Shown piece by piece: positions 2,703-61,659 of a stretch of 64,000 nt of DNA; the stretch's first letter is position 1; every line of letters starts with the position of its first letter. Both the position numbers and the translations under genes were made by a program. The notes under the pieces are model-generated. The model did no database searches and was not told where the DNA came from. It was given only the letters and a program-made list of their open reading frames with translations. Origin of the DNA: Hermatobates lingyangjiaoensis. Taxonomy: Eukaryota; Arthropoda; Insecta; Hemiptera; Hermatobatidae. The stretch spans positions 145,049 through 209,048 of the forward strand of contig JAPFBL010000595.1 of the NCBI GenBank assembly GCA_026182355.1. Reading direction: 5' to 3'.

Positions 2703-2747
2703 TAAACAACGCGTTTTCGAACACGTAGTGTTCTTCTTCAGGTATTA
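2703..2747 (-). ncRNA. Hammerhead ribozyme, PLE-D type, near intact
   Basis: On the minus strand CTGAAGA is followed by one extra A, a stem II of GAACAC/GTGTTC closed by TAC, GAAA, and the palindrome ACGCGT of stem III. One additional A sits between GAAA and the palindrome, and stem I is only partly paired, so activity is uncertain. It matches the intact copy at 16743-16785. Confidence 0.55.
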
Positions 2748-3074
2748 ACTAAAAAATACAATGTCATCAGAGACTTTTTGATTAATCATAATGTTAAAAA
2801 AAGATTTAAAATGCTTTATGCGTTACTTATGAAGAATAATTATCTATAGTATTATCAGTTCATATATCTTACAGGATATTAAACCTATCTATTATTTCTA
2901 ATTGACATAGAAATTAGATCTATTTTGACTAAAAGTATGTCACAAATTAAGATAGTTTTACTTAATTTAAGATGAAGGAAGATATATTACTTCCATTTAA
3001 GTTATTGAAATGATTTATGGAAGTTATACTTCTTATAATTTAGTAGCATTAATTAAACGATATATTTGTGATAT

Positions 3075-3241
3075 ATATCGTATTACAGACATACATATTT
3101 ATACTTCATAAATAATAGGTACAGTATTAAGCATTGTATGTTGCATATATGAAGCATATTATATCATATTACAGATGTACATATTTATACTTCATAAATA
3201 ACACAGTATTAAGCATTTTATGTTGCATATATGAAGCATAT
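3075..3241. repeat. Local tandem duplication
   Basis: Two adjacent copies of a roughly 70-95 bp segment containing ATTTATACTTCATAAATAA and GTTGCATATATGAAGCATAT. The copies differ by small deletions. Confidence 0.75.
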
Positions 3242-4279
3242 TAGACTTAGATGTCCTAAAATGAGATATTATTCATGTAATATTCATTTAAAAATTAAGA
3301 AAGTATAACTATTAAGTTATTGATTAGTAGTGAGGTTCGTACTGAGATTGTAATTTAAAATTAGAAGAGTATTTTATTTTGTTATGACATTGGCACATTT
3401 AATAATGTTAAACATTATTTTAACAATTTCAGCAGTAACAACTTTAACTATTGATTACCTTTTCATCATAAACATTAAAATGTTTCTTGGCTCATTAGAA
3501 TAAATCAGTCAAAATATAAACTGTTATTTATAGTTCACTTGAGCATAGACCAAACCAAAATGTATTTAAAGAAACAATTAAACAAATCAACTTCTACTGT
3601 GATTCTGACAAGTAATCACAAAAGAAAGTTATTATTTCACTTTCTTTGTCTTCCTAGTATCTAAAATGAAATTTGCTTTCTTTTGAACTTAATATTGTGA
3701 TTTTATGTGCAAAATGATAACTTTTTTATTGTCTCAAAAAGAACAAACAATAATTTGTGGTTTGACATAAATTACCATAATGTATCTTTATCAAGGTTCA
3801 ACATTGACAAAAACTATGCAGTTCTTTTCCTGATAAAGAATTATTTATAACAGGAATTTCATAATAGTGTATCAAACTTGCAGGAATCATTCTCACTTAC
3901 ATACCTTTTGATATTATCAAAAAACAATATCAGAAATGGCTTTAAAACACATCACTTCGTTTAAATCAATCGACATTTTAAAATCTAATTTTTTCGTTAT
4001 CACTTCATTTAATTTACAGTGAAGCAAAATGTTGTTATCTAAACTTTTAGATTATTGAATCATTTAGTAATAATTTAAATGTTTAATAGGATCGTATAGG
4101 TAAGTTTTATAAACTCTGGCTGTATGTATATGTCTAGAAAAAATTACATCTTTTTTTTTGTTGATAGTGCATCGTCTACTAGGACATTAGCACTGTCTGG
4201 TTTTGTTAGATTCTCTAGTTCCTCATATTTTGTTGTAGAGTTTTATTTCCTTTAGGAATGATGTCACTTCACTGGAATA

Positions 4280-4850
4280 TTTATTATCAGGGGCTAGTGC
4301 TGTTATCAATTTTGATGGTATACCTAGAGTCATCCTTTCTTCCTCTAAGTGGGCATTCTTCAATTAAATGGGCCACCCACAACACATCTTTACTTTTAAG
4401 ACATGAGGGTCTTTGTTCTCTGGATAACAGGTAACTATGTGTAGCTCGCTTGTGACCTATATGTAGGCGGTTTAACATCACATTCGTTTCTCGATTTTCT
4501 GTTCCAGTGTTTATTGTTGTTGCAATTGATCCCATTATTTTCCGAAGTTAAGTGGTTTCTTCATTCCATTCGGTTTTCAACCCTGTTCATATTGCTTTTA
4601 TAATATTCTTTCTCATGTCCTTCAGCTATTATATTTCTAGTTTCTCTGTTAGTTGCTTCCTTTGATGCTCTGTCTGCTTTATCATTTCCTTCAATACCGA
4701 CATAGTTTGGTATCCAGGCAAATCACACTTGCTTGTTCCTAATATTTAGGTCATGAAGGCATTCAAATATCTAAAAAATTATAGAAGCTTTTAAATTATG
4801 TTCTTCTAGGGCTATCAATGCCAATGACATCTTATTTATCACTTTAATTA
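4280..4850 (-). pseudogene. LINE relic: RNase H domain and C-terminal region
   Basis: Minus-strand translation gives an RNase H-like stretch around 4660-4740 (WIPNYVGIEGNDKAD, then RASKEATN), the usual WxPxHxGxxGNxxAD motif of RNase H in I/Jockey-type non-LTR retrotransposons, with N in place of the histidine. Downstream, 4287-4535 reads NRLHIGHKRATHSYLLSREQ and then EECP, typical of the region after RNase H, where a Cys/His motif is normally found; here that motif is damaged. Several frameshifts and stops separate the pieces, so this is a dead fragment. Reverse transcriptase is not present and the 5' side is lost. The clade cannot be fixed. Confidence 0.7.
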
Positions 4851-4977
4851 GTTGTTGCTAAGTCTGTTCTAATAATGAATATAACTTATATTGACTTAAA
4901 GAACTACACAAGAAATTGTTTTGTTTGATACTGAAGTTATAGTTATCTAAGAACGTGATATTTTTAAGAAAGTTTAA

Positions 4978-5055
4978 AAAGACGGATTACCCGAAAATTT
5001 GAGTCTGTAAGTGTGTTTCCTTACTTTGTGTGTTGCTCTTTGTTAATCTCGAACT
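4978..5055 (+). mobile_element. PLE-B terminus fragment with truncated hammerhead
   Basis: Begins inside the hammerhead (GACGGATTACCC, then GAAAATTTGAG) and continues into the family tail TGTAAGTGTGTTTCCTTAC. It abuts the (TA)n tract at about 5058-5086. The CTGAAGA half of the core is missing. The same tail occurs at 6207, 23212, 35297 and, inverted, near 36310. Confidence 0.65.
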
Positions 5056-5086
5056 CGTATATATATATATAAATATATATATATAT

Positions 5087-5899
5087 ATGATTCGATGCGA
5101 TGTTGACCAATGGGAGTAGAGTTACAGGTCCAAGCGTAAGGTCCCAGTTGCCCGCTGCTCAGCAAAAAGCCTTTACGTTCTGCCAATAGGTATAGAGGTT
5201 GCACAGTCCCTCTGTGTTAAATGATGTTTGGCAGAAAACGTTAGCCTCACTTTACAGTGAACTCCTGTTCCCTTTCTATTTTTGATTTTTGTGGTGGTTG
5301 GGTGTTGTTGTTGTTTACTATTTTCTGTTACGGATATTGCTGGATATTTAAATGATACTCTCGGTTGTTTACTGCGAAAAGCCGCCTTCATCTTCATGCC
5401 AACAGGGGTAGAGGTTGCACAGTCCCTCTTGATTATTAAGAGATGTTGACACTGGAATCCAACTTCTTCTCGTAGAAACATCTTCAAGTTGTAGGTAGTT
5501 GAAGATGTTTCTACGAGAAGAAGTTGGATTCCAGTGTCAACATCTCTTAATAATCAAGAGGGACTGTGCAACCTCTACCCCTGTTGGCATGAAGATGAAG
5601 GCGGCTTTTCGCAGTAAACAACCGAGAGTATCATTTAAATATCCAGCAATATCCGTAACAGAAAATAGTAAACAACAACAACACCCAACCACCACAAAAA
5701 TCAAAAATAGAAAGGGAACAGGAGTTCACTGTAAAGTGAGGCTAACGTTTTCTGCCAAACATCATTTAACACAGAGGGACTGTGCAACCTCTATACCTAT
5801 TGGCAGAACGCAAAGGCTTTTTGCTGAGCAGCGGGCAACTGGGACCTTACGCTTGGACCTGTAACTCTACTCCCATTGGTCAACATCGCATCGAATCAT
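5087..5899. repeat. 813-bp near-perfect palindrome, unknown element
   Basis: Arms of about 400 bp (5087-5487 and 5499-5899) are almost identical inverted copies around an 11-nt loop; one clear difference is A/G near 5174 versus 5811. Both ends are close to (TA)n tracts. Each arm carries the same open frame (104 codons at 5173-5487 minus; 121 codons at 5499-5864 plus) with no recognised domain and an internal duplicated motif RDCATS followed by P(V/I)G. The layout matches the PLE palindromes elsewhere in the window, but no hammerhead core or RT was seen, so the family is unknown. Confidence 0.8.
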
Positions 5900-5904
5900 A
5901 TTCC

Positions 5905-6250
5905 TTTCCCCGGACAACCCATAGGAAAATATATATATATATATATATATATATAGTGTTCCTTGGAAATACGATCCAAAACGGACAAATATAGATCTAT
6001 ATAGACAAAGAAACATAGAAAAATCAAAAGAACACACTTACAGTCTCTAATTTTCGGTTTGAACCGTCTTCAGGAGAGATAAGAGAGGGAAACCAAGCGC
6101 ACTGGTTCAGTCTGGGCACTGGGTCTCCAACCGTCTCTGAACCAGTGCGCTTGATTTCCCTCTCTTATCTCTCTTGAAGACGGTTCAAACCGAAAATTAG
6201 AGACTGTAAGTGTGTTCTTTTGACTTCTCTATGTTTCTTTGTCTATATTG

Positions 6251-6293: not shown

Positions 6294-6376
6294 GATTTGT
6301 TTTTTGACCCAATATTCATATGATATAATTTATTTCTGATGAGGGTTGAGGTCTTATGATTGAAACTACTTCTGTC

Positions 6377-6413
6377 GCCGATGTTTCGACAAATATTTGT
6401 CATCTTCAGGGCT
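6377..6413 (-). ncRNA. Hammerhead ribozyme, PLE-C type, intact core
   Basis: Minus strand: stem I GCC, CTGAAGA, extra T, a long stem II from the perfect inverted repeat GACAAAT/ATTTGTC, GAAA, CAT, cleavage-site C, then GGC pairing with GCC. All core residues are canonical. Confidence 0.8.
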
Positions 6414-7684: not shown

Positions 7685-7720
7685 GCCCTGAAGATGACAA
7701 ATATATGTCGAAACGTCAGC
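7685..7720 (+). ncRNA. Hammerhead ribozyme, PLE-C type, near intact
   Basis: GCC, CTGAAGA, extra T, stem II GACA/TGTC, GAAA, CGT, cleavage-site C, then AGC. The core is complete, but the first stem I pair is C/A, so stem I is weakened. Confidence 0.65.
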
Positions 7721-12630: not shown

Positions 12631-13530
12631 CACATACATGCATACGCATATAACAGATTTCACAATAAACCCATCAAACAACAATCAACGTCCAAACCGC
12701 AATAAGAAATAAGAAAAAAAGACTAAGATCTTTCAACTGTAACAAGCTGAACTACACAGTATATTACTGAACTACGCAGTATGCCACTGAACTTCATAGT
12801 ATGTCGCTCAACTACATAGTATGTCACTGAACTAAACAGTATATTACTGAACTACACAATATGCCACTGAACTACATAGTATGTCACTCAACTACATAGT
12901 ATGAGTAGTACCTGATGTCACTGAACAACTCAACTACATAGTATACCTGATGTCACTGAACTAAACAGTTATTTACTGAATTATAAAGTATGTCACTGAA
13001 CTACACAGTATGTCGCTCAACTACATACACTGTCACTGAACTAAACAGTAAATTACTGAACTACACAGTATGTCGCTCAACTACATAGTATGTCACTGAA
13101 CCACACAGTGTGCCACTGAACTACACAGTATGTCACTCTACGACATGGTATGTCACTAAACTACACAGTATATTACTGCAGTACACAGTTTGTTGCTCAA
13201 CTACATAGTATGTCTCTGAACTACACAGTATGCCACTGAACGACACAGTATGTCCTCAACTACATAGTAGGTCACTGAACTACACAGTATATTACTGAAC
13301 TATACAGTATGTCACTGAACTAAACAGTATGTCGCTCAACTACATAGTATGTCACTGAAGTAAACAGTATATGTCGCTCAACTACATAGTATGCCACTGA
13401 ACTACACAGTATGTCACTCAACTAAACAGTTTTTTTCGTCAGAACTTGACGAAGACCGCTTGATACGGTTCAAAGATCTTAGTCTTATTCCCTCATTTCT
13501 TATTGTTGTTTAAACGTTGAATGCATATAC
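12630..13530. mobile_element. PLE-A inverted pair with minisatellite in the centre
   Basis: The left terminus 12650-12755 (minus sense) runs up to the first half of a hammerhead and stops at AACAAGC. The right terminus 13436-13515 (plus sense) restarts at CTTGACGAAGACCGC. Both hammerheads are damaged: the right has TTGACGA and CAAA. The space between, where two ribozymes normally meet, is filled by a 20-bp tandem array. Confidence 0.75.
12750..13432. repeat. 20-bp minisatellite inside the PLE-A pair
   Basis: About 34 imperfect units of ACTGAACTACACAGTATGTC and variants (CTCAACTACATAGTATGTC). Occasional insertions break the register, for example near 12905 and 12960. Confidence 0.85.
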
Positions 13531-15748: not shown

Positions 15749-16087
15749 CTATTGTTCATTAAATTTCCATTTAAAGTTCTTTATGAGTGCACTTTCAATA
15801 ATATTTCTCTTCCTTTCTGAAGGTACAAAAATTATTTCCTTTGCTTCACTCCAATTTATGATATGATTTTTGTTCCTTACATGTAAGAACAAGGCACTCT
15901 TTTCATCTTCCCGTCTGATTGAATATTGGTGTTGTTTTACTCTTGTAAAGAGACCTTTACTCGTCTGTCCAATATAAGACATTTGGCAATCAGTACAAGG
16001 TATCCTATATACACAACTATCTTTTTCCTCCTCCTTATTATTAATAAACAAGCCTTTAAAACAAATTACTATCATTACTAAACACAA
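15749..16087 (-). pseudogene. PLE GIY-YIG endonuclease fragment
   Basis: The 112-residue minus-strand frame reads VYRIPCTDCQMSYIGQTSKG followed by LFTRVKQHQYS and ALFLHVRNKNH. This is the GIY-YIG nuclease found at the C-terminus of Penelope-like retroelements, where it nicks the target. The two cysteines between the GIY (here VYR) and YIG motifs are the PLE hallmark. A later glutamate (NIIESALI) would be the metal ligand of the family. RT is missing, the frame starts within the linker, and no PLE terminus is directly attached. It resembles the PLE-A endonuclease at 28840-29170 but is clearly diverged, so it represents a related lineage. Confidence 0.8.
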
Positions 16088-16742
16088 CGGAGAGGTCCAG
16101 CTTTTTCAAAATATATATATCAAGAATTATTGTTGGTTATTAATTTTTTATATAATATATTATATATATATAGAGGTTCTTATTATCATATTATCTGTTT
16201 TAATTTTGTGTTCTCTTTGTTTTCTGTGTATTTACTCTATTTAATGGCTCCCTCTGCCTATATTCAGTATAAAGAAATAAATATATTATTATTTATTTGA
16301 ATAAAACAATATATACTTACTTAATAGTAATGAACATTTTATTTTTCGCTGGAATGGATCTTCCAGGTGTATTTTCGAATGTAGGTATTCCAGAAATTCC
16401 AAGCTGTTTATTTCCTAATTGCAAGATGTTAACAATATAGAATTTAAAGTAGCAATATTTAAATCTGCTTTTGTCATCTATACAATAGTTTTCCATCATG
16501 GAGAATACCATTTCTGTAGGAGCATTTCATCCTGGTAGTAACATAAACAACAATTCTAATACTTGTAGAATATTTTGTAAATGGAATATCCTGACATTTG
16601 AAATGTAGAAATATTTCTATTCATCTTTCAATTGATGAATCATGAAGATTTAGGGTGGATCTCCCATTAACAAATTTATTATTAAAAACAAAAAACAAAT
16701 TATATGTTCTTAAAGCTCACGAAGATATTTATTTTATAGATG

Positions 16743-16785
16743 TTAACCTGAAGAAGAATACTAAGTGTTCGAAACGCGTTGTTAA
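16743..16785 (+). ncRNA. Hammerhead ribozyme, PLE-D type, intact
   Basis: TTAAC (stem I), CTGAAGA, extra A, stem II GAATAC-TAA-GTGTTC with one wobble pair, GAAA, the palindrome ACGCGT sharing the last A of GAAA as stem III, T at the cleavage site, then GTTAA pairing fully with TTAAC. Five base pairs in stem I and a 6-nt self-complementary stem III make this one of the best-formed copies; dimer formation is likely. Confidence 0.8.
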
Positions 16786-16859
16786 TTTCATATTAAACTT
16801 TTTTTTTTGTTTGGAGACGTAATTTTTGAAATCCACTCTATATGAGTAAATGCAACACT

Positions 16860-21091: not shown

Positions 21092-21470
21092 AAAAAGATT
21101 TCACATAAACACGTGAAATAACAATCAATGATCAAACCACAATATGAAATGGGAAAACAAGACTAAGATCTTTCAACCGTAACAAGCGGTCTTCGTCAGA
21201 TTTAAAAACCCAACCCAAGTCAGTTGGGTTTTTGACTCTGACGAAGACCGCTTATTATGGTTGAAAGATGTTAGTCTTGTTTTCTCATTTCATGTTGTGA
21301 TTTGATCATATGGGTATATATAATTAGTTGCAGTTTTGACTCTGACGAACACCGCTTGTTGTGGTTGAAAGATCTTTGTCTTATTTTTTCATTTCATACT
21401 GTGTTTTGATCATTGATTGTTGTTTCACGTGTTTTTTTTGAAATCTTTTCTTCTACAGGTATCCTTATGG
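21092..21470. mobile_element. PLE-A inverted termini plus a third terminus
   Basis: The left arm (minus sense, 21092-21205) carries the long 3' end with TTTCAC/GTGAAA. The right arm (21225-21310) ends at TTTGATCATATGGG. A further plus-sense terminus follows at 21330-21460. Hammerheads: 21161-21203 minus (complete core, poor stem I), 21234-21276 plus (complete core, stem II with G-U pair, stem III AGATGT no longer palindromic) and 21338-21380 plus (complete core, altered stem II and first stem I pair). Confidence 0.75.
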
Positions 21471-23302: not shown

Positions 23303-24245
23303 GTTACAGCTAGAGAACACAAGAAAAAGGACGAACACTCACGAATCTCGATTATTTCGGCGTCTTGCCGTCTTCAGGAGAGTAGAAAGAAAGAAAATAA
23401 AATAAAAGGAGAAAGAATGAAGGAACGGAGACGTAAATGCGTCCACTGGCCGATGTAAACTGGCGCGATACAATGACACGCAGTGCAGCCACCTTACCAA
23501 CGTGAACCAGTGTAGGCTGTGAGTTAAAAAAATTATAAAAGTGATATTTAAGTAAAAGGGAGGAGAAAAGTAAAAAAGAGAAAGGAAAGGAAAAAAACAT
23601 AAAACTAACTAAAATTAAACGAGAAAAAAAAAATAAAAAAAATAAATAAATAAATGAATAAATAAATAAAAATAAAATAAAAAAATCATCTGATTAAATT
23701 TAGACCAGGGGAATTTCTTGCACCCAATAACCAAATGAAGGCTTCCTCAGAAGCCCTTAGAGTGGTCTGGGTGTCATCATTTGAGAGTTTTCTTAATATT
23801 TTAACCCTGAAGCAATCGTTGAAGGGAAGGTTATGGAGATTGGCGTGGGTGGCAACAGGCAGCTGCTTGCGTTGACCAACGGATGACCTGTGACCATTCA
23901 TACGGAGGCTAAGTGACGTGGAAGTCAGGCCCACGTAGAATGAGTCACATTGTGTGCAGTCCAGACGATAAACACAATTGCTGGAAGTGCAAGAACTAGC
24001 AAAGGAGAGAGGGTATGAATGGTTGTTCACTGTCGAAATGAAATGGCTGTCAGGATTGATGATGGGACAGGTGAGGCATTTCCTTCTGCCACATTGCTTT
24101 GTGCCAAAAGTGTCAGGTGCAGGCCTGGAGCGTTTAAAACTTCTATGGGAGAAGATATTGCCCAGAGTGGGGGGTCGTCTAAAGGAAATCCGGGGTGATT
24201 TGGTGAAAATATTGGAAGTGGTCGGAGAGGATGACAGGAGAGGAG
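23300..24245 (-). pseudogene. PLE-B endonuclease fragment with its 3' end
   Basis: The minus-strand frame 23686-24300 (204 codons; codons upstream of about 24245 run into (TA)n) shows a cysteine cluster (CGRRKCLTC) and then a GIY-YIG domain: VYRLDCTQCDSFYVGLTSTS with two cysteines between the motifs, LRMNGHRS, and ASEEAFIW as candidate metal ligand region. The nuclease domain of PLEs makes the target nick. Downstream on the same strand come about 300 bp of 3' sequence, an intact hammerhead (23346-23381) and a (TA)n tract, so coding and ribozyme parts belong to one element. RT is absent: the copy is 5' truncated at (TA)n near 24245. Confidence 0.75.
23346..23381 (-). ncRNA. Hammerhead ribozyme, PLE-B type, intact
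   Basis: Minus strand: TCTC, CTGAAGA, extra C, stem II GGC-AAGAC-GCC, GAAA, TAAT, cleavage-site C, GAGA fully paired with TCTC. All core residues are canonical and the cleavage triplet is AUC. Confidence 0.8.
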
Positions 24246-24265
24246 ATATATATATATATATATAT

Positions 24266-24412
24266 AGTTTATCGGGACTCGGCCAGTTCTTCAGGTTCAA
24301 ATTAAACTCTCATTGCCAACGTGTTGGTCTTTATTTAAAACCTTTTCCATAGGTAGAAGTATAAATTTATACTTCTCAGAAAAACTGACCGAGTCCTGAT
24401 AAACTATAGTTT
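24266..24412. mobile_element. Short palindrome from a decayed PLE terminus
   Basis: AGTTTATCGGGACTCGG at the left and its near-inverse (CCGAGTCCTGATAAACT) at the right enclose CATTGCCAACGTGTTGG and the stem-II-like TTTAAAACC. The expected CTGANGA is not present. Confidence 0.6.
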
Positions 24413-24509: not shown

Positions 24510-24547
24510 GCCGACGTTTCGATGTATTTGTACATCATCTTCAGGGC
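24510..24547 (-). ncRNA. Hammerhead ribozyme, PLE-C type, intact
   Basis: GCC, CTGAAGA, extra T, stem II GATGTA-CAAA-TACATC, GAAA, CGT, cleavage-site C, GGC. Complete core and stem I. Confidence 0.82.
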
Positions 24548-25146: not shown

Positions 25147-25184
25147 GCCCTGAAGATGATGTACAAATACATCGAAATGTCGGC
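25147..25184 (+). ncRNA. Hammerhead ribozyme, PLE-C type, intact
   Basis: Same structure as 24510-24547 in the opposite orientation. The only change near the core is GAAATGTC for GAAACGTC, which keeps the fold. Confidence 0.82.
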
Positions 25185-25288: not shown

Positions 25289-25335
25289 AAATGTATATAT
25301 AACAGATTCAATAATATATCGACCGTTTGATAGAA

Positions 25336-25530
25336 TAGCTGTGTTCTCTAATCGGGGTTCGGTCAATTTTCCAGGATAAAAAATCAAACTCTCGTTGCCA
25401 ACGTTTCGGTTTTATTTAAAACCTTTTTCATAGGCCTATGAAAAAGGTTTTAAATAAAACCGAAACGTTGGCAACGAGAGTTTGTTTTTTTATCCTGGAA
25501 AATTGACCGAACCCCGATTAGAGAACACAG

Positions 25531-29347: not shown

Positions 29348-29390
29348 GACTCTGACGAAGACCGCTTGTTACGGTTGAAAGATCTTAGTC
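29348..29390 (+). ncRNA. Hammerhead ribozyme, PLE-A type, intact
   Basis: Identical in structure to 25991-26033, opposite orientation; closes the right end of the large PLE-A palindrome. Confidence 0.82.
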
Positions 29391-38394: not shown

Positions 38395-40085
38395 TGTTAT
38401 AGAAACTGATGATTGATTCATGCTTGTTACATCCTCTTGTTTCTTTCACGATCATAAATATGGTATGAATGGAAAGTACCTGATGATTGATTCATGCTTG
38501 TTACATCTTCTTGATTCTTCCACGATCATATGTATGATATGAATAGAAAGTACCTGACTATTGATTCACACTTGTTACATCTTCTTGTTCCTTCTATTCC
38601 CTCCATGATAATATATATGATATGAATAGAAAGTAGTTGACGATTGAGTCATGCTTGTTACATCCTCTTGTGTCTTCCTTGATCATATATATGATATGAA
38701 TAGAAAGTACTTGACGATTGAGTCATGCTTGTTACATCCTCTTGTGTCTTCCATGATGATATATATGATATGAATAGTAAGTACTTGACGATTGAGTCAT
38801 GCTTGTTACATACTCTTGTGTCTTCCATGATCATATGTATGATATGAATAGAACGTACTTGACGATTGAGTCATGCTTGTTACATCCTCTTGTGTCTTCC
38901 ATGATCATATGTATGATATGAATAGAACGTACTTGACGATTGAGTCATGCTTGTTACATCCTCTTATGTCTTCCATGATCATATATATGATATGAATAGA
39001 AAGTACTTGACGATGGAGTCATGCTTGTTACGTACTCTTGTGTCTTCCATGATGATATATATGATATGAATAGTAAGTACTTGACGATTGAGTCCTGCTT
39101 GTTACATACTCTTGTGTCTTCCATGATGATATGTATGATATGAATAGAACGTACTTGACGATTGAGTCATGCTTGTTACATCCTCTTGTGTCTTCCATGA
39201 TCATATGTATGATATGAATAGAAAGTACTTGACGGTGGAGTCATGCTTGTTACGTACTCTTGTGTCTTCCATGATGATATATATGATATGAATAGTAAGT
39301 ACTTGACGATTGAGTCATGCTTGTTACATACTCTTGTGTCTTCCATGATGATATATATGATATGAATAGTAAGTACTTGACGATTGAGTCATGCTTGTTA
39401 CATACTCTTGTGTCTTCCATGATCATATATATGATATGAATAGTAAGTACTTGACGATTGAGTCATGCTTGTTACATCCTCTTGTGTCTTCCATGATGAT
39501 ATATATGATATGAATAGAAAGTACTTGACGGTGGAGTCATGCTTGTTACGTACTCTTGTGTCTTCCATGATGATATATATGATATGAATAGTAAGTACTT
39601 GACGATTGAGTCATGCTTGTTACATACTCTTGTGTCTTCCATGATGATATATATGATATGAATAGTAAGTACTTGACGATTGAGTCATGCTTGTTACATA
39701 CTCTTGTGTCTTCCATGATGATATATATGATATGAATAGTAAGTACTTGACGATTGAGTCATGCTTGTTACATACTCTTGTGTCTTCCATGATCATATAT
39801 ATGATATGAATAGTAAGTACTTGACGATTGAGTCATGCTTGTTACATCCTCTTGTGTCTTCCATGATGATATATATGATATGAATAGAAAGTACTTGACG
39901 GTGGAGTCATGCTTGTTACGTACTCTTGTGTCTTCCATGATGATATATATGATATGAATAGTAAGTACTTGACGATTGAGTCATGCTTGTTATATCCTCT
40001 TGTGTCTTCCATGATGATATATATGATATGAATAGAAAGTACTTGACTGAAGTCATTCTTTTTATACAAATCATGTTCCTTATAC
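38395..40085. repeat. 74-bp satellite array, ~22 copies
   Basis: Unit around GAGTCATGCTTGTTACATAC, TCTTGTGTCTTCCATGATGA, TATATATGATATGAATAG and GTACTTGACGATT. The outer units are most diverged. Variant units carrying ACGGTGGAGTCATG with TTACGTACTC recur near 39235, 39533 and 39903, about four and five units apart, showing multi-unit duplication. Confidence 0.92.
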
Positions 40086-40600
40086 GATTATGTATGATGA
40101 TAAAGGAAAACATTTCAAGTAAAATAGAAAAATGACTTCTTTCTATGAAAGAAAGAAAAACAATTTTTTTTTTCTTATATAAAAGTTAAACGGATGTATT
40201 CAATTTTCACAAGTCTTGTAAAACCATAAAGAAAGAAAGAAAAAAAAAAACAATGAATCACGTAAAATCAAATGAGTTCCTATGAAAAGAGATCAACATT
40301 TGTGTAATAAAATGTTTTATAAAAGACAGAGGGTCAATATTGTTTTGTTGCAAGGTTTAGAAGGAAGTAGATCAAAAGGACTGAAGTCTGTCAATAAGAG
40401 TAGGGGAGAAGCAGTGACCACAAGGCCACTACAAAGGACCCAGTAATGTATAACAAGATCAACTCGCCGACTTTGGATTGTATATATACTTTTTCCCCCT
40501 CTTAATGCAGTTGCTTGCGACTTTTTTTTTCCTTTCTTTTAATCTAAAGGGTCTGTATTGATTTGCAATGATATTGAATTAGGGTTCCTACTGGATGGAG
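40086..40600. other. AT-rich sequence, nothing recognised
   Basis: No gene or element ends recognised. Confidence 0.4.
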
Positions 40601-40975
40601 GTGCCAGAGTAGCCCAGTGGTAATGTGCTCGCCTTTGGACTGGTAAGTCCGGGGTTCAAAACTAATTTTAGCCCTCGATTTATTCACGGCGGATGTGAAT
40701 AAATCTGAGCATGTCTGTCTCTGTGACAGGAAGTTAAGCCGTCGATATGATATCAGCTATTTGTTAAAGATCTCTACTCTTAATAGATTTGATTTAGACA
40801 AAATTTAGAACTCGTAATGTAGAATGTGTTCCCTTAACCTAATCTACCCTCCAAAGTCAACACTCCGGTGCTGATTCCTCGAGAGAATATTCCATCTCCC
40901 ATTGATTCTATATTGGAAACCCTAAATTTTGACTAACTCAAGGCTATTTAGAGTGGGGATCTTTAACGAGTAGAG
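40601..40975 (+). mobile_element. tRNA-SINE copy plus inverted fragment
   Basis: Plus-sense SINE from the head (GTAGCCCAGTGGTAATGTG, GGGGTTCAAAA) through body to TGTGTTCCCTTAACCTAATC at about 40846, with part of the tail deleted. A separate minus-sense SINE piece follows at 40895-40975 (CCCTAAATTTTGACTAACTC and GGGGATCTTTAACGAGTA). Confidence 0.7.
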
Positions 40976-41364: not shown

Positions 41365-41970
41365 TTCTCCTTTTCATATTGTGGTTTGACGATTGATTGT
41401 CATTTCACGTGTTTATGTGAAATATTTATATATATATATACATATATATAATATACACCAATATAACGTAAGTAGACAAGAAAAAAGTAGTGCCTTATTC
41501 TTGCATATAAAAAATGAAAATCATCATATTGATTGGACAGGAGCTAAATTTATTACCTATGAAAAATCAATGTTGTTAAGAAATATTATTGAATCGTTTC
41601 TAATTAAATTTAATAGATCTAATATTATAAACATTAGTAACGGTCTCTTCAAACTTGATACTTTCGTCACGAGGGCAATAGCCTCTTCAAAGAGGGTTGA
41701 CAGCTAGCGGATAGTTTTTTACTTTTTCTTATTGTACTCCTTTGTTTCCCCAAACATCCCTTTCTGGACATTAGTCCTTTCCTGCACTTTCACCTTTTTA
41801 AAATACCACTCTTCCCTCCCACTCTTCTCAACTCCTCACCAGATGTTTTCTGCATCTAGTGTTCAGTTGGGTTTTTGACTCTGACGAAGACCGCTTGTTA
41901 CGGTTGAAAGATCTTAGTCTTGTTTTCCCATTTCTTATTGTGGTTTGATCATTGATATATTATATATATA
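41365..41970 (+). pseudogene. PLE-A 3' end and endonuclease fragment
   Basis: A short plus-sense terminus (41365-41430, with TTTCAC/GTGAAA) and (TA)n precede a second PLE-A piece that starts inside the endonuclease (HQYNVSRQEKSSALFLHIKN, about 41455) and runs through IIESFLIKF to the stop near 41705, its 3' region, the hammerhead at 41877-41919 and a short 3' end (TTTGATCATTG) at (TA)n. Almost identical to the right arm of the big palindrome apart from a few substitutions. The GIY and YIG motifs are cut off. Confidence 0.85.
41877..41919 (+). ncRNA. Hammerhead ribozyme, PLE-A type, intact
   Basis: GACT, CTGACGA, extra A, GACCG/CGGTT, GAAA, AGATCT, T, AGTC: same complete structure as 29348-29390. 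Confidence 0.8.
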
Positions 41971-42256: not shown

Positions 42257-42430
42257 TGATCAAAACCACAATATGAAATGGGAAAACAAGTCAAAGATCT
42301 TTCAACCATGACAAACAGTCTTCGTCAAGTTCAGAGTCAAAAACCACTAGATCTTAGTCTTGTTTTTCCATTTTCTTATTGTGGTTTGATCATTGATTGT
42401 CATTTCACGTGTTTATGTGAAATATTTATA
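42257..42430. mobile_element. Mini PLE-A palindrome, decayed
   Basis: Left short 3' end (TGATCAAAACCACAATATG) in minus sense, damaged hammerhead (core TTGACGA), then a plus-sense end with TTTCAC/GTGAAA. Total about 170 bp, bounded by TA-rich sequence. Confidence 0.65.
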
Positions 42431-44076: not shown

Positions 44077-44890
44077 GGCTAGGTTACCTCAGTAGTAGGT
44101 TAGGTTAGGTTAGGTTACAGTGGCCGTCCCGAGAGAGAACACACATAGGCCGCAAGCCGGCCCCTTGTGATACCACAAAGAGAAATTGGGGCTATTCTCC
44201 CCCGTCACTGGTCCACTCGAACCATTTCGAGAGAACAATAAATCTAGACAGATCCCTGATACCAGTGGATGCTAAGTTCTCAAGATTGTCAAAGAAGTAT
44301 TCTCCTAGTGCTTCTTTCCTTCTTTGAGCCAGACCAGGGCATTGACAGAGAAAGTGAGAAATTGTCTCTTCCTCTTCCTCGTTCTGACATGCCCTGCAGA
44401 AATCCCTCGCCTCCAATCCTAATCTGGTGGCGTGTCTACCTACGAGCCAGTGTCCCGTGGAAACAGCGATCACATTGGCTACATCTCTTCTATTCTTAGA
44501 AAGAAGATCCTTCGTTCTTCTAGAATTGTAAGAAGGCCATAACTGCTTTGAAATAAGACACGTGTCCTCCTCAGACCACCTTTGTTTGATGCGTTCATCA
44601 ATTCTCTGTCTGATCCAAAGTTTACATGTAGACAACGGGGTCCCTAAATTACTTCAGTGGTAACGTGTTTGCCTTAGGACTAGTAGGTCTGTGGTTCAAT
44701 ACTCACTCTGCCACTCGATTTAATAACACTCGAGTGGAAAAACTCTGAGCATGCCATCTCTCAGAGAGGACGCTAAAGCCATCAATCCTGCGCCTGTACG
44801 ATGTTACGTACTCATTAATGACACATACTCTAAATACACTTGAGTTAGGCAAAATTTAGGACTCCCAATATAGAATGTTCACTGTGTACT
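44077..44890 (+). mobile_element. tRNA-SINE split by a LINE insertion
   Basis: A head piece (GGCTAGGTTACCTCAGTAG) lies at 44077-44095 and the SINE resumes at 44643 (CTAAATTACTTCAGTGGTAA) with B box (GTGGTTCAATAC), body and tail to about 44890. The two head pieces overlap by about 17 bp with 3-4 mismatches, as expected for an old target duplication made by the LINE at 44096-44642. Confidence 0.6.
44096..44642 (-). pseudogene. LINE 3' end with (AACCT)n tail (SINE partner)
   Basis: The minus-strand frame 44192-44635 (147 codons) encodes the region after RNase H of an I/R1-like non-LTR retrotransposon: VIAVSTGHWLVGRHATRLGL, then the Cys/His motif CRACQNEEEEETISHFLCQC (C-x2-C-x9-H-x4-C) and a conserved tail GIRDLSRFIVLSKW. 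The 5' part (endonuclease, RT) is absent. After the stop come about 70 nt nearly identical to the SINE tail (GTGGTATCACAAGG, GGCCTATGTGTGTTC, GCCACTG) and four AACCT repeats. This links the LINE and the SINE by a shared 3' end, the feature that LINE reverse transcriptases use to recognise their RNA. A second copy is at 56400-56912. Confidence 0.85.
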
Positions 44891-46378
44891 ATCTACCAAA
44901 ATTGGTAAAAAAGCCAATATCTGTCCTTTTTCCCTTTTGTTCACCCATTTTCCGTGGTGATAGAGACCTGAAATTATTATAATCTTTACTTTTGTTGTGA
45001 TTGGCTTTCTTGTAGTTGTATTACATAAAAACAAATCGTATTAGAGTGTCATGGTAGCCCTGTGGCTTGCGTACTCGTCTCGACTTTCTACAATATTATT
45101 TAACAATATTATATTAATAATAATATATTAAGGAGTCAGGGTAAAAATGAAAATTTTAGAAACAAATTTGAAAACAACTGTCAGATAAATACCAATGCTC
45201 TAAGGTAATATTATAAAGACACATTCCTTTCAGTAATGCTATTTATATAAGGTAAATAAATTGAATATTTCAATTTACAAGTTTTGTTTGTTTGTGATTT
45301 GCAATATATTTGATTGCGTGTTTAACTTAAACTGATGTTTTATTTATTTATGTCATAAAATAAAAGATTTTTTACTTTTAAATGATTTTTATTTTGCTAA
45401 ATATACTTACTGTGTATATACGTATCTTGAATCATGTTAAGGATACTATATCAAAAGCTTGGGCCATATAAGAATCTGTTTCCGTGCCTTAATAACAAGA
45501 AACAACAATTAAAATTATCTCTTTCAATCATGTTCAGTGAGTTAATTTCAATAACTATTGCTATTATTTCTGAGTGACACAAAGGGTCACGGGTAGTCTA
45601 GTAGGCATACAATGCATAATTTTATGCTATTTGCTTAATTATTTATATTGTTGTTAATAAAACTATAAAATAAACATTGTAAAGCAGTTGTTTTAGAGGT
45701 TCTATTAAGAGAACATTCTTTCAAAAAAATATTCATTAAAATATAAGACCTTTAGAATGGAAAGTTATCTTGAAGCTTCAACAGAAAATAACAATTAAAC
45801 ACAATGCTGGAATTATTAGAGAGAGAAAAAAAAAAAGAATTCAACAGGAGAGTGATGAGAAAGAAAGTACTGTAAGAATCCGCTTGGGGCGTTGATTGTA
45901 ATCTAATGGCGAGTAATTGCTTGTAGGTCTGTTTCATTTTTGCTTTAGACAGAATGATACCATATCAACAACAACAAGAACAACAATAACAACACAAGAG
46001 CAACAGTAGCTCAACAGAATCAAGGAAAGAGAGAGAGAGTGAGAGAGAGAGAGAGAGAGAGAAAAGTAAGGGTGGTGGAGGGGGGGGGTAGGAACAACTA
46101 AATGAAATGGCTTCGAAAGAAATTAGTTCTGCTGACACGTGTCAAGAAGAAACAAGGCCAATCAAGCAGACAGTAAACTCACTCTATCTCTGTTTCTAGT
46201 ATTAACTGATTCTCGTAGAGGTGTTTTACTTTGAAAGCAGTTATAGTAATGATAAAATAACAATCTAGCTATGAACAATAAAAACTTCAATGAATAAAAC
46301 CTGTTTCAAAAGTTAATCACGAAAAATTAATTTATTTTGAACCAATAAAGATCAGTATGAATTATTTGATTTTTAAAT
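44891..46378. other. AT-rich sequence, little recognised
   Basis: Contains a lone SINE-head-like piece at 45053-45080 (GGTAGCCCTGTGGCTTGCG), a (GA)n tract with G run at 46027-46090, and no coding region. Confidence 0.4.
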
Positions 46379-46683
46379 AAAAACCAATTAAAAAGAAGAT
46401 AGCACGCAGATAGACACAGGAATAACTCACTTCTATATTTTGATCATCGTCGTCATCAGGAGGCGAAGAGTCCCGCAGGAAAGCAGAATGGCAACTGAAC
46501 ACGAACAGCAGTAGCACAACTGTTAGTGAAATGGTTGTTAGTGCTGTGTCTGTTCGTGTTCAGAAGCTGCTCTGCTTTCCTGCGGGACTCTTTGCCTCCT
46601 GATGACGACGATGGTCGAAATATAGAAGTGAGTTATTCCTGTGTCTATCTGTGTGCTATCTTCTTTTTAATTGGTTTTCATTT
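46379..46683. mobile_element. PLE-E inverted pair
   Basis: Arms 46379-46520 and 46531-46683 share AACCAATTAAAAAGAAGATAG, CACAGGAATAACTCACTTC and the ribozyme region in inverse. The left hammerhead has lost G12 (CAAAA); the right one is intact. No coding frame. Confidence 0.8.
46595..46628 (+). ncRNA. Hammerhead ribozyme, PLE-E type, intact core
   Basis: CTGATGA at 46599-46605, extra C, stem II GAC-GATG-GTC, GAAA at 46617-46620, TAT, A at the cleavage site, GAAG. Stem I is short (two pairs before a mismatch). Stem III would be the palindrome ATAT. Confidence 0.68.
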
Positions 46684-47505: not shown

Positions 47506-48105
47506 AAATGCCTTACCCATGGTTGTTTAACATCCTATCTTTGACTACCCAGGTGTTTGAAAGAATCCATTACCCATGGTTGTTTAACGTCCTATCTTTG
47601 ACTACCCAGGTGTTTGATCGAATCCATTACCCATGGTTGTTTAACGTCCTATCTTTGACTACCCAGGTGTTTGATCGAATCCATTACCCATGGTTGTTTA
47701 ACGTCCTATCTTTGACTACCCAGGTGTTTGATCGAATCCATTACCCATGGTTGTTTAACGTCCTATCTTTGACTACCCAGGTGTTTTGATCGAATCCATT
47801 ACCCATGGTTGTTTAAACGTCCTATCTTTGACTACCCAGGTGTTTGATCGAATCCATTACCCATGGTTGTTTAACGTCCTATCTTTGACTACCCAGGTGT
47901 TTGATCGAATCCATTACCCATGGTTGTTTAACGTCCTATCTTTGACTACCCAGGTGTTTGATCGAATCCATTACCTATGGTTGTTTTAAGTCCTATCTTT
48001 GACTACCCATGTGTTTGATCGAATCCATTACCCATGGTTGTTTAACATCCTATCTTTGACTACCCAGGTGTTTGATCGAATCCATTACCCATGGTTGCTT
48101 GTGTT
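47506..48105. repeat. 57-bp minisatellite, ~10.5 copies
   Basis: Highly uniform units: ACCCATGGTTGTTTAACGTC, CTATCTTTGACTACCCAGG and TGTTTGATCGAATCCATT. Only scattered changes (single-base insertions near 47785 and 47815) separate the copies, so the expansion is recent. The 19-residue reading frame repeat is a consequence of the 57-bp period. A diverged single unit lies at 49315-49380. Confidence 0.92.
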
Positions 48106-48785: not shown

Positions 48786-48887
48786 TTTTTTCAATATCTA
48801 CTCTGGCATTAAAGCATATATATATATATAAACTAGATGTATATATATAATATATATATATATTATATATATATATATATATATAAA

Positions 48888-49084
48888 TGATCAAACCACA
48901 ATAAGAAAATGGGAAAACAAGACTAAGATCTTTCAACCGTAACAAGCGGTCTTCGTCAGAGTCAAAAACCCAACATGACGAAGACCGCTTGTTACGGTTG
49001 AAAGATCTTAGTCTTGTTTTCCCATTTTCTTATTGTGGTTTGATCATTGATTGTTGTTTCACGTGTTTATGTGAAATCTTTTTA
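48888..49084. mobile_element. Mini PLE-A palindrome (197 bp)
   Basis: Consists only of two outward-facing PLE-A termini: a short 3' end (TGATCAAACCACAATAAG) on the left and the long end with TTTCAC/GTGAAA on the right, between (TA)n tracts. The left hammerhead is intact (48921-48963). The right begins ATGACGA, so its first core base is lost. Confidence 0.85.
48921..48963 (-). ncRNA. Hammerhead ribozyme, PLE-A type, intact
   Basis: Full structure on the minus strand: GACT, CTGACGA, extra A, GACCG/CGGTT, GAAA, AGATCT, T, AGTC. Confidence 0.82.
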
Positions 49085-49393: not shown

Positions 49394-49431
49394 CGCCAAC
49401 GTTTCGTCTTTATTTTAAGACATCTTCAGGG
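49394..49431 (-). ncRNA. Hammerhead ribozyme, PLE-C type, intact
   Basis: GCC, CTGAAGA, extra T, stem II GTCTT-AAAATA-AAGAC, GAAA, CGT, cleavage-site T, GGC. It lies downstream of the endonuclease gene at 49720-50340 on the same strand, tying PLE-C ribozymes to a coding copy. Confidence 0.82.
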
Positions 49432-49639
49432 CTATAAACTAACAAAAACAAGGGAACATTTGTCATATCTACTTTACATTCATCATAAAAAATTTAAAAA
49501 ACTTACTTACTCAAGGCTAGCTTCTAATACCGAACCAACAAAACCATTATCTATCATTAGCTATTGACATTAGCTATTTATTGGAACATTAGCTATTTAT
49601 AATGGAACTATAAATCCTATTTAAATTATCAGTATCGTT

Positions 49640-51130
49640 TTTTTTATTGCAAGTTTTGTTAGTATTTTTTATATGGATCATTTCTTTTATCAATCTTTTA
49701 TTGTGTGAAGTTTCATAATCTAAAATGGATGGATTTTAAATTGAAATGTGTGTTGATTTTTAATTGTGTGAGAAGCTAAGGCACAAAACATTTTTTTATT
49801 TTTAAAATTTGATTTCTGTAACGCTAATCTATCCTTTAGATATTGTTTGGTTTGACCTATGTATACCTTATTACAATTATTACAAGGAATAGAATATATT
49901 ATATTACTTTTAATTAGTTTGTTGATAGGTGATTTAGTGTTAGTGAAAATACATGTATTTAATTTTTTCTTTACTTTATATGTTATTTTAAAGTTAGCTT
50001 CCTTAAATATTTTTCTAATTTGTTCAGTCAGTTCCTTAGCATATGTCACTGATCTATACTGTGGTGAGTTGGTGTTATCAGGAGGGCTTATGAGGCCATT
50101 ATTACTGGAGTTTGTGGAGTGATGATTTTCTTCATTACCTTCTTCAGTGTTTAAATCCGGTCTTACATTCCTATTAGTGTCTACCTGTGGAGTTATTTCA
50201 TTATGGTTACTAACTGTTGTTCGCATTATTTTATTTATTATATGCTGTGGGTAATTATTTTGTTTCAATATATTTTTTACTATATTTAAATTTTTCTTTA
50301 TAAATTGATTATCACATAAATGTATGTATCTATATTTCAATGCTAAAGCAGTGTTAATTTTGTGTTTTAGAGGGTGGTGGGATAATAAATTAAGGTATAT
50401 ATATCAGTTTTTTATGGTTTGCGACAACAATCAACGACTATGCTACGGATTTCTGTATACTGTATATGTATTCTGTACACTGTATCTAAAAATGAGAATC
50501 TGTAATCATTTTCTAATTCTATTACAAACTTTAATTTTGAATGGAACGAATTGAAATGGGCCAGTACTATATCAACTGACTCTTGGGGAATTGTTAAAAA
50601 CAGGTCATCTACATATTTATAAATGAAAAGCATTGGAAAAGGTATCACTAAATCTGCCAAGATGAGGGCACATGGACTACCCATTACTACTCCATCTATA
50701 ATTCTGTAATGTTCATTGTAGGTTAGGTTGCAGTGGCAGTCCCACAAGGGAACACACGTAGGCCAAGCATTGGCCCTTTGTGATACCACACAATGAAGAT
50801 TGATTCTACAGTGGGAGTCCTAAATTTTGCCTAACTGAAATGTATTTAGAGTAGGGATCTTTAACGAGTACCTGACATCGTACAGGCTCGGGACCGACAG
50901 TTTAACGTCCTTCTCCGAGAGACGACGTGCTCAGATTTATTCACCTCCCGCGTGAATAAATCGAGGGCCAGGTGAGGATTGAACCCAGGTCCTATCAGTT
51001 CAGAGGTGAGGACGTAACCACTGAGCTAGCCTGGCCCCCAATGTTCATTGTAATTGAAATAGAGTCATACTTTACCATTTCCTTATTATTTTTACATATA
51101 TTTTTATAATATTATTTACAAAAAAAAAAA
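49640..51130 (-). pseudogene. PLE-C RT and endonuclease, split by a SINE
   Basis: The minus-strand fragment 50412-50789 contains RT motif B (DGVVMGSPCALILADLVIP) and motif C (YKYVDDLFLTIP), followed by ENDYRFSFLDT. The endonuclease lies at 49720-50340: IYSIPCNNCNKVYIGQTKQY with two cysteines between GIY and YIG, LKDRLALQ, ALASHTIKNQH. A frameshift separates them. RT resumes upstream of the SINE at 51053 with YFNYNEHY, so the SINE at 50721-51039 disrupted the gene just before motif B. Further frameshifts near 51070 show the copy was already decaying or decayed later. The 5' portion is unrecognisable beyond about 51130. Confidence 0.85.
50721..51039 (-). mobile_element. tRNA-SINE, full length, best copy
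   Basis: 319 bp, minus sense, flanked by the perfect 13-bp duplication AATGTTCATTGTA (50708-50720, 51040-51052). From the head: GGGGGCCAGGCTAGCTCAG (A box), B-box region GGGTTCAATCC, body with GATTTATTCACG and GGTACTCGTTAAAGATC, and a tail of about 75 nt (GTGGTATCACAAAGGGCC, GGCCTACGTGTGTTCCC) shared with the LINE at 44096-44642, ending in AACCTAACC. Transcription by RNA polymerase III from the A/B boxes is known for such SINEs. Confidence 0.9.
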
Positions 51131-56912: not shown

Positions 56913-56956
56913 AGTGATAGGAGAGAATGAAGAATATTTTGACGACTTTAGGAAGG

Positions 56957-57110
56957 TTAGGTTAGGTTGCAGTGATAATCTCACAAGAGAATACACACAG
57001 GCTGAACATTGACTTCTTTGTCATACAACACAATGAACATTCTACATTGTCTATTGTAAATTTTGTCTAAGTATATTTATAGCAGCGATTTTTATCAAGT
57101 ACCTGACAGT
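56957..57110 (-). mobile_element. tRNA-SINE tail half
   Basis: Minus sense: AGGTTAGGTTAGGTTGCAGTG, then CACAAGAGAATACACACAGG and AAATTTTGTCTAAG, to TACCTGACA at 57110. The head is missing. Its tail faces the tail of the LINE at 56400-56912. Confidence 0.75.
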
Positions 57111-57480: not shown

Positions 57481-57562
57481 TAAATATATAGTAGCAATAT
57501 ATGAATAAAAGTTATGTTAATTAACAACATAAATATGAGCTTTTAACATGGAGATATTACAG

Positions 57563-57778
57563 GGCCATGTTAGCTCAGTGGTTAACGTACTCCTCTCTGG
57601 GCTGGTAGTCCGGGGTTAGATCCCCCAATCTGGCCCTCGATTTATTCACGCAGTAGGTCATCCATCGGAGAGGACGTTAAGCCGTCTGTAAGATGTCAGG
57701 TACTTGTTAAAAATCTCTACTCGAAATGCACTCGAGTTAGGCGAAATTTAGGACTCGAGATGTAGAATCTATGGAATC
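57563..57778 (+). mobile_element. tRNA-SINE copy, tail truncated
   Basis: Plus sense head with GGCCATGTTAGCTCAGTGG and GTTAACGTACTC (A box) and CCGGGGTTAGATCCC (B-box region), then the body to AGGACTCGAGATGTAGAATC. Lacks the LINE-like tail and pentamers. Confidence 0.8.
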
Positions 57779-59948: not shown

Positions 59949-59983
<35 letters not shown>

Positions 59984-59985
<2 letters not shown>

Positions 59986-60200
59986 ATGATCAAACCACAA
60001 TAAAAAATGGGAAAACAAGACCAATATCTTTCAACCGTAACAAGCGGTCTTCGTCAGAGTCAAAAACCCGACTGACTCCGTTGGGTTTTTGACTCTGACG
60101 AAGACCGCTTGTTACGGTTGAAAGATCTTAGTCTTGTTTTCCCATTTCTTATTGTGGTTTGATCATTGATTGTTATTTCACGTGTTTATGTGAAATCTTT
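59984..60200. mobile_element. Mini PLE-A palindrome (217 bp)
   Basis: Two outward-facing PLE-A termini between (TA)n tracts. The left end starts CAATGATCAAACCACAAT; the right end has TTTCAC/GTGAAA. The left hammerhead (60019-60060) keeps the core but has AGATAT for AGATCT. The right is intact. Confidence 0.85.
60091..60133 (+). ncRNA. Hammerhead ribozyme, PLE-A type, intact
   Basis: Complete: GACT, CTGACGA, extra A, GACCG/CGGTT, GAAA, AGATCT, T, AGTC. Confidence 0.82.
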
Positions 60201-60239: not shown

Positions 60240-60420
60240 AATATATATATATACTTCCAATAAAATGAAAGGTCCGTGTGGACAATAAAAACTTTAACAC
60301 ATAGGAAAGAACAAGAAAGTCACTACAGAACTCACTTCGATATTTCGACATCCGCCGTCGTCGGGAAGAAGTGCGAAGTACTCGCGTTGAGAAGCAAACT
60401 GCTAATATATATATATATAT
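60240..60420 (-). mobile_element. PLE-E terminus with near-intact hammerhead
   Basis: Hammerhead at 60335-60368, minus: CTTC, CCGACGA (one change from CTGACGA), extra C, stem II GGC-GGAT-GTC, GAAA, TAT, C, GAAG fully paired. (TA)n tracts lie on both sides. Confidence 0.6.
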
Positions 60421-60429
60421 ACGAATATT

Positions 60430-60560
60430 AAAAGTATGGTCAAAAACCCAACTCACTCTGACGAAGACCGCTTGTTACGGTTGAAAGATGTTAGTTTTTT
60501 TTTATCTTTTCATATTATGGTTTGATCATTTCACGTGTTTATGTCAAATCTTATTATTAT
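60430..60560 (+). mobile_element. PLE-A terminus, single
   Basis: CACTCTGACGAAGACCGC, CGGTTGAAAGATGTTAG and TTTCACGTGTTTATGTCAAA. Stem I and III are altered; core boxes kept. Confidence 0.65.
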
Positions 60561-60599
60561 GTATTTTTTTTTACTTTTTGTTAAAAATATGATCAGAAA

Positions 60600-60790
60600 C
60601 AGACAAATGAAGTTCTATATAGATAAGAAAAAAACATAGATAAATTGAAAACACACACTTACGGTCTATAATTTTTAGATTAAACCGTCATCAGGACAGA
60701 TGAGAGAGGAATACCAAACGCAGTGGTGCAGAGACAGTTGGAGACCAACAATGTTGCTGCATGTGCGGCGTGTCACAGAGAATAAGGTAA
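60600..60790 (-). mobile_element. PLE-B-like terminus, decayed
   Basis: Minus sense: GTCCTGATGACGGTTTAATC then TAAAAATTATAGACCG; the G of GAAA is lost. Tail GTAAGTGTGTGTTTTC continues. Confidence 0.55.
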
Positions 60791-61160
60791 ACAATAATCA
60801 ATTTAAAATTAATTGATAAGGAAATAAGAGAAAAGTTATATATAACAGAAGAACAGAGAAATGATTTTATACAGAAATAAAACTAAAAAGACTAGGCTTT
60901 TTGTAAAAACTAAAAAAATACTTAAAATAATACTGTTAATCAAATATATGCAGAATACAGGTTTCTAGTACGGTATCAATGTCTAAAGAGGAATTTGAAG
61001 ATCAGAAAATACACTAGAATGTTTGACCTGAAGCAGATTGTCTTCATCAAAGTTATGAAGTGATGAAAAAAGATCTCGGTCAATTTTTGTATTTCTTACA
61101 ATGGTTTGTACTTAGCATTTAATTTAGCATGTTTATTCTGAACTCTTGCTATAATTTAAT
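60791..61160. other. AT-rich sequence, nothing recognised
   Basis: No feature recognised. Confidence 0.4.
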
Positions 61161-61164
61161 ATAT

Positions 61165-61379
61165 AAAAAGGTTTCACATAAACACGTGAAATAACAATCA
61201 ATGATCAAACCACAATATGAAATGGGAAAAGAAAACTCAGACCCAAAAAAAGACCCAATACAGTTGGGTTTTTGACTCTGACGAAGACCGCTTGTTACGG
61301 TTGGATGATCTTAGTCTTGTTTATCCATTTTATAATGTGGTTTGATCATTGATTGTTATTTCGTGTGTTTATGTAAAAT

Positions 61380-61384
<5 letters not shown>
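61165..61384. mobile_element. Mini PLE-A palindrome (220 bp), decayed
   Basis: Both termini show the long 3' end. The left hammerhead is deleted; the right (61274-61316) has GGAT in place of GAAA. Ends at (TA)n, 61384-61430. Confidence 0.75.
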
Positions 61385-61430
<46 letters not shown>

Positions 61431-61434
<4 letters not shown>

Positions 61435-61659
61435 CAAACCACAATAAGAAATGGGAAAACAAGACTAAGATCTTTCAACCGTAACAAGCGGTCTTCGTCA
61501 GAGTCAAAAACCCAACTGAGGGTTTTTGACCCAACAGAGTCAGTTGGGTTTTTGACTCTGACGAAGACCGCTTGTTACGGTTAAAAGATCTTAGTCTTGT
61601 TTTCCCATTTCTTATTGTGATTTGATCATTGATTGTTGTTTCATGTGTTTATGTGAAAT

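Follow-up and report, generated by a model that had tools for sequence, protein, structure and literature searches.

Hammerhead motifs and Penelope-like remnants in the window

The window analysed here comprises 64,000 nucleotides of contig JAPFBL010000595.1 (positions 145,049 to 209,048; assembly GCA_026182355.1) of the hemipteran insect Hermatobates lingyangjiaoensis, and contains a dense set of hammerhead ribozyme motifs, some of which are located downstream of broken coding sequences of Penelope-like elements (PLEs). The hammerhead core, CTGANGA followed by GAAA, was matched 34 times across both strands (31 distinct starts), whereas 100 shuffled sequences gave 3.6 matches on average and never more than 8. 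Similarly, a descriptor combining stems I and II, the NUH cleavage site and the helix III element recovered 12 sites, while 20 dinucleotide shuffles yielded 0-1. A second descriptor, demanding a stem II of 4 bp and a helix III stretch that is self-complementary while tolerating one core mismatch, returned 11 sites and none in 12 shuffles. Core and stem II are present together at 25 sites, one of which (6335-6377) is probably a chance match.

Searches with nhmmer using 13 representatives (E<=0.01) yielded 49 places in five sequence families, A (10), B (9), C (2), D (24) and E (4). The whole core is present in 27 of the 49, some of the remaining places end inside the motif (42348, 61200), and those at 22082, 34879 and 55123 are weak, with E near 0.003. 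The five families proposed in a preliminary description of the window are hence borne out, while its estimate of 14 complete copies plus about 20 decayed ones is too low for the whole set. All 14 sites listed there contain CTGANGA ... GAAA, at coordinates that are mostly correct and in a few cases shifted by 1-2 nt (e.g. 25989-26031 and 49395-49432), and 11 of them pass a strict descriptor (stems I and II of at least 3 bp each, a self-complementary helix III stretch and an NUH site). Those that fail are 6377 (ACAU, not self-complementary), 23346 (AUAAU, odd length) and 46595 (a mismatch after 2 bp of stem I). A scan of viral contigs with the family A motif pattern gave a single match without visible stem II, which was taken as chance.

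Family D is associated with PLE coding sequence at 25.9-29.5 kb, where two remnants form inverted arms with 99.8% identity across 1594 bp. The minus-strand remnant (26182-27835) holds RVT_1 and GIY-YIG pieces, is 5'-truncated and has a broken frame, and the inverted plus-strand copy (27803-29197) holds reverse transcriptase (RT) and GIY-YIG pieces; the Pfam matches reach E=1.9e-12 and 5.4e-13 for RVT_1, and E=8e-5 for GIY-YIG. Approximately 170 bp past the ends of these remnants reside two intact hammerheads, 25989-26031 (minus) and 29348-29390 (plus), making up a head-to-head PLE pair. The latter displays a GACU stem I, one additional A, a 5-bp stem II and AGAUCU, with cleavage predicted between 29386 and 29387. 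Among the matches listed (the best 120 of 1060), the best relative of the family D RT shows 57% identity along 99% of the query, and the few relatives with names are the crustaceans Oratosquilla, Cherax and Procambarus. A further intact hammerhead of this family (41877-41919, plus) is found 3' of a PLE remnant's C-terminal end (41450-41704).

The family A remnant (49595-50819, minus) contains an RT piece with YVDD and a GIY-YIG piece, and has an intact hammerhead with ACGU downstream (49395-49432, minus), and the family B remnant (23689-24309, minus), a GIY-YIG piece, is likewise followed by a hammerhead with AUAAU (23346-23381, minus). The GIY-YIG matches of A and B are under the Pfam cut-off, and the support for PLE coding comes from tblastn with PLE relatives, at E=6.8e-16 and E=1.9e-7, respectively. 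RT and GIY-YIG are in the window broken pieces in the right order, and are united in the relative P0002; no full-length element with both terminal repeats was seen in the window. The PLE pieces of A and D are about 31-32% identical, and B matches D over about 43 residues alone, a divergence that points to three PLE lineages, each with its own hammerhead family. The same-strand PLE coding reported in the preliminary description for 23.3-24.2, 26-29.5 and 49.4-51.1 kb is confirmed for families B, D and A, respectively. Its broader claim of hammerheads in several Penelope-like families is upheld for the core, the density and the excess over chance, with PLE coding present beside only three families (A, B and D).

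The other family D copies include three hammerheads in tight inverted pairs, 48921-48963 (minus; pair 48887-49049), 60091-60133 (plus; pair 59985-60167) and 61463-61505 (minus; pair 61430-61630). The partner arm of the second, 60019-60061 (minus, AGAUAU), was absent from the earlier list. An inverted pair with a third arm spans 21127-21414 (cores 21199 minus, 21238 plus and 21342 plus), decayed inverted pairs are located at 36074-36245 (core 36179, plus), 42257-42395 (with a right arm that begins within the motif) and 61944-62097, and 60455-60495 (plus, AGAUGU) is a single arm. The centre of yet another inverted pair, 12689-13517, is occupied by a minisatellite (12747-13430; 20-bp unit, about 35 copies), as if grown at the hairpin tip. 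A fourth PLE GIY-YIG piece, 53% identical to family D across 91 residues, is present at 15752-16105, where it adjoins (TA)n and a D-like tail; by eye, no clear hammerhead is found downstream of it.

In family A, an intact hammerhead with ACGU (24510-24547, minus) and one with AUGU (25147-25184, plus) constitute the left and right arms of an inverted pair. Furthermore, a copy in which ACAU has lost self-complementarity (6377-6412, minus) has its partner, with a broken stem I, about 1.2 kb apart (7688-7717, plus), and an additional inverted pair spans 30114-30372 (cores 30149 minus and 30340 plus). A family B hammerhead with AAUU (6044-6077, minus) belongs to the tight inverted pair 6021-6225. 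Family C comprises an intact hammerhead with a 6-bp stem I and ACGCGU (16742-16786, plus) and a decayed one with an extra A (GAAAA) and a weak stem I (2706-2743, minus), and family E includes an inverted pair (46409-46649, core 46599 plus with AUAU) and a decayed copy whose core is not intact (60316-60390, minus).

Stem II register and the helix III position

With the register not preset, a single unpaired nucleotide separates A9 from stem II, and stem II directly adjoins G12, at 23 of the 25 sites that hold core and stem II. The remaining two show the same +1 register with one broken pair, and the canonical register was recovered at 0 of 25. Congruent with this, the second descriptor separated by register gave 0 sites in the canonical form, where stem II sits directly on A9 and G12, and 11 in the +1 form. 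For 14 copies drawn from the five families, the +1 register allows 54 of 56 stem II pairs and the canonical one 23 of 56, a count biased toward +1 by the choice of GAAA via the +1 helix. When the stem II arms were swapped between families, only 2.46 of 4 pairs remained for the same 14 copies; stem II changes in step between families, representing compensatory change. The pairs were counted by script, without a covariance model, because the MAFFT alignment misplaces GAAA in family B.

Stem I measures 3-6 bp across the 11 copies passing the strict descriptor. The position of helix III is occupied by ACGU in family A, AAUU in B, ACGCGU in C, AGAUCU in D and AUAU in E, and an even, fully self-complementary stretch, which was not required in the scan, is found at 15 of the 25 sites and is represented in every family. 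Self-complementarity is lost in some copies, as in ACAU, AUAAU, AGAUGU and AGAUAU. Since this stretch has no loop, it provides no helix within one molecule, though two molecules could join through it. Of the type I hammerhead with three helices given in the preliminary description, the core and stems I and II hence stand, whereas helix III, loop-less and not formable in one molecule, does not. Canonical type I (RF00163) has the core and the open stem I in common with the window copies, from which it differs in helix III and in stem II register, with scores far under the cut-off. Judged from their sequences, the motifs class as dimer-type minimal hammerheads with one extra nucleotide before stem II, rather than as canonical type I.

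The one precedent that we can name for the extra nucleotide is a viroid hammerhead with an additional core nucleotide, reportedly the subject of one paper. In PMC6155905 and PMC4918200, the extra-nucleotide hammerhead occurs only as a reference title.

Head-to-head pairs and arm ends

Same-family neighbours less than 700 bp apart are arranged minus/plus in 13 cases, plus/minus in 5, plus/plus in 2 and minus/minus in 0. In 20,000 strand shuffles, minus/plus pairs averaged 5.2 and reached at most 12, versus the 13 observed, a figure that serves as a guide as the copies are not independent. Together with two wider head-to-head pairs, 6350/7656 and 25956/29331, this places 30 of the 49 places in head-to-head pairs, and the pair centres are -1 to 94 bp in 10 of the 13 closer ones. 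The preliminary description overlooked this pairing, which alters what the copies can do. Of the 49 copies, 23 have (TA)n arrays at most 150 bp away on their 3' side and 14 on their 5' side, compared to 0.086 per random side; the 5' count may in part be due to the 3' side of the nearby opposite arm in tight pairs.

The arms of family D have two 3' end points. Eight tail-less arms stop at 29423-29429 as judged by BLAST, others continue through a 34-nt tail, and some ends are blurred by (TA)n or decay. Of 11 family D pairs, 8 carry the tail on a single arm, 1 on both arms and 2 on neither (one borderline, one decayed). Head-to-head pairs with a one-arm tail are a known Penelope layout: the Penelope families of Adineta vaga similarly have inverted head-to-head short terminal repeats (pLTRs), a tail on one arm and AT-rich targets (PMC3846280), in a paper from which the word hammerhead is absent. 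The family D tail (29424-29457) includes a small stem-loop (TTTCACGTGTTTATGTGAAA) directly before (TA)n, in a position resembling that of the stem-loop where PAc, the Poseidon element of the lizard Anolis, begins reverse transcription (PMC11167929).

Self-priming on a single antisense template, an origin suggested for the Penelopes of rotifers, would account for the pairs with RNA dimers uninvolved, and is compatible with dimer-type motifs. Considering the identical layout and one-sided tail in PMC3846280, and the short pair centres, we give this origin a chance just short of even. PAc, on the other hand, cuts and extends both DNA strands (PMC11167929), which could yield head-to-head copies from sense RNA with no self-priming involved. 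That the inverted pairs of the window arise since insertion cuts and extends both DNA strands is a view we hold tentatively and with some doubt.

Several short family D units, of about 265 bp and without coding sequence, also carry hammerheads, and could be conceived as retrozymes, i.e. small non-coding tandem hammerhead repeats that spread as circular RNA (PMC7229834). Type I hammerheads in tandem repeats of 150-450 bp are reported from many animals, crustaceans included, and metazoan retrozymes resemble the window copies in having type I hammerheads in short non-coding repeats (PMC7229834). The strand orders listed above are however not those of a tandem arrangement, the short units have the same ends and tail as the PLE copy at 25.9-29.5 kb, and the window copies are devoid of the stable helix III that retrozymes have in most invertebrates (PMC7761336). 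A retrozyme nature of the short copies is therefore highly improbable.

Other repeats of the window include two satellites, 38407-40047 (74-bp unit, about 22 copies, 93% matches) and 47513-48097 (57-bp unit, about 10 copies, 96% matches). A long near-perfect inverted repeat at 5414-5572, with a sub-threshold Rfam match to a Wolbachia sRNA, is probably a small transposon palindrome, and the palindromic repeats 25291-25534 and 36625-36792, 87-88% alike and with sub-threshold microRNA matches, probably represent a small DNA transposon. A further family of dispersed repeats, about 150-320 bp long, is located at 31783-32104, 50719-51039, 40600-40972, 44649-44893, 56954-57108, 57562-57772 and 63398-63574. 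The top Rfam matches of the window (microRNA, Wolbachia sRNA and coronavirus 5' UTR) are all under the cut-off, and the alignments inspected fall on inverted repeats.

Proposed dimer-type cleavage and its alternatives

We consider it probable that the motifs are dimer-type PLE hammerheads and that they occur in three or more PLE lineages. Minimal type I hammerheads of PLEs are reportedly the subject of work by Cervera and de la Pena in 2014 and by Lunse, Weinberg and Breaker in 2017. Minimal PLE hammerheads with a reduced helix III, acting as dimers, are described in PMC7761336 and PMC6466107. Compared via these citing papers, they share with the window copies the PLE setting, the core, stems I and II and the reduced helix III, whereas the window copies possess the extra nucleotide before stem II and are mostly inverted, not tandem.

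As a model, it is likely that the motifs cut RNA only as dimers, with helix III replaced by the self-complementary stretch of 4-6 nt. Each motif would be part of the pLTR of its PLE. The stretch may join two transcripts, or a pair of direct copies within a single transcript, which would then cleave one another at the NUH site. PLE protein probably assists, as in PAc, where the hammerhead cuts only with protein and where cleavage is lost with C3G or G8C (PMC11167929). With less certainty, insertion would leave inverted pairs through cutting and extension of both DNA strands. PAc is similar in having RT and GIY-YIG, a hammerhead given as stems I and II only, AT-rich targets, and a tail explained by two RT start sites (PMC11167929). 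It differs in its tandem copies, in a hammerhead that overlaps the start of the open reading frame and in an activity that has been measured, the window copies being known from sequence.

After insertion as a tight pair, a long RNA hairpin would silence both ribozymes. With 150 nt of flank on each side, the predicted probability of stem II was 0.00 in 8 of 8 copies of tight inverted pairs, at fold energies of -144 to -191 kcal/mol, compared to 0.01-0.97 among 14 other copies (one chance match excluded). Tight-pair copies are predicted to be silent if transcribed through, the ribozyme being buried in the hairpin.

Several observations weigh against cleavage as dimers, and against the PLE assignment of all five families. 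For families C and E, no PLE coding is seen near the copies within the window, and the extra nucleotide before stem II could lower activity. Poor folding is also predicted for certain copies that lack a tight partner (30149, 0.01; 23377, 0.12; 29352, 0.15), tertiary contacts and protein being left out of these predictions. RNAcofold did not single out the helix III stretch as a dimer contact; in its dimers stems I and II pair across two molecules, which neither supports nor excludes the dimer. Moreover, a mere 1 of 26 family D arms starts within 2 nt of the predicted cut (at 29386), while 10 of 26 start at 29334-29338 and three of 26 reach the reference start or within 1 nt of it. The notion of arms beginning at the cleavage site, for which a few arms suggested 29380-29386, was dropped, and the rarity of such starts means that there is no clear cleavage footprint in the genome. 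In PAc, in vitro insertion is unchanged by ribozyme mutations, and the cleavage site coincides with neither the start nor the end of any read (PMC11167929).

Rfam also speaks on this side. Across the whole window no family reaches its cut-off, and no hammerhead appears at E<=10. Among three short stretches (D, A and C), only that of C, with the intact copy, matches Hammerhead_1, over the whole model yet at 12.6 bits against a cut-off of 34. None of the positions in the preliminary description has a covariance match above threshold, an outcome that it had itself named as counting against its claim. We do not regard the miss as a refutation, because the Hammerhead_1 model has a helix III, which is absent in these variants. 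As a caution, Rfam at its cut-off missed every hammerhead copy in the window.

These observations can alternatively be understood if the motifs are non-cleaving relics or structural signals, for example protein-binding hairpins of PLE RNA or DNA, with recognition by the PLE protein conserving core and stems. The extra core nucleotide, the lack of helix III and of Rfam matches, the arm starts without footprint and the independence of PAc insertion from cleavage are in line with this. A binding hairpin, however, needs no CTGANGA, GAAA or NUH site, and these are kept in five families with differing stems; in addition, PAc does cleave with its protein, and single core changes abolish it. We find such a non-cleaving role unlikely.

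Even if the motifs are dimer-type hammerheads, the self-complementary stretch may have another part to play. Speculatively, and with low probability in our estimation, it would clamp two PLE RNAs in a dimeric protein complex, which would cut both strands of an AT-rich site, copy one RNA per side and leave a head-to-head pair, with self-silencing by burial in the hairpin. The catalytic fold would then be retained equally for template pairing and for cutting, and the +1 nucleotide would mark the clamp type. Such a clamp agrees with the presence of the stretch in every family, with the head-to-head pairs and with the cutting and extension of both strands by PAc; self-priming on one template accounts for the pairs equally well.

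That so many families coexist was considered striking in the preliminary description. The density and the several lineages are substantiated here, whereas the coexistence is less striking than was held there, given a coral genome with 16 hammerhead families and more than 6000 motifs (PMC7229834). Dimer-type hammerheads of PLEs are themselves already described, and the window adds new members to them, with the extra nucleotide together with the self-complementary stretch as a common design. The role of minimal hammerheads in PLEs was called a mystery by a 2020 review (PMC7761336). With five families sharing this one design, mostly in inverted pairs, it becomes testable if the motif serves template pairing, RNA processing or both.

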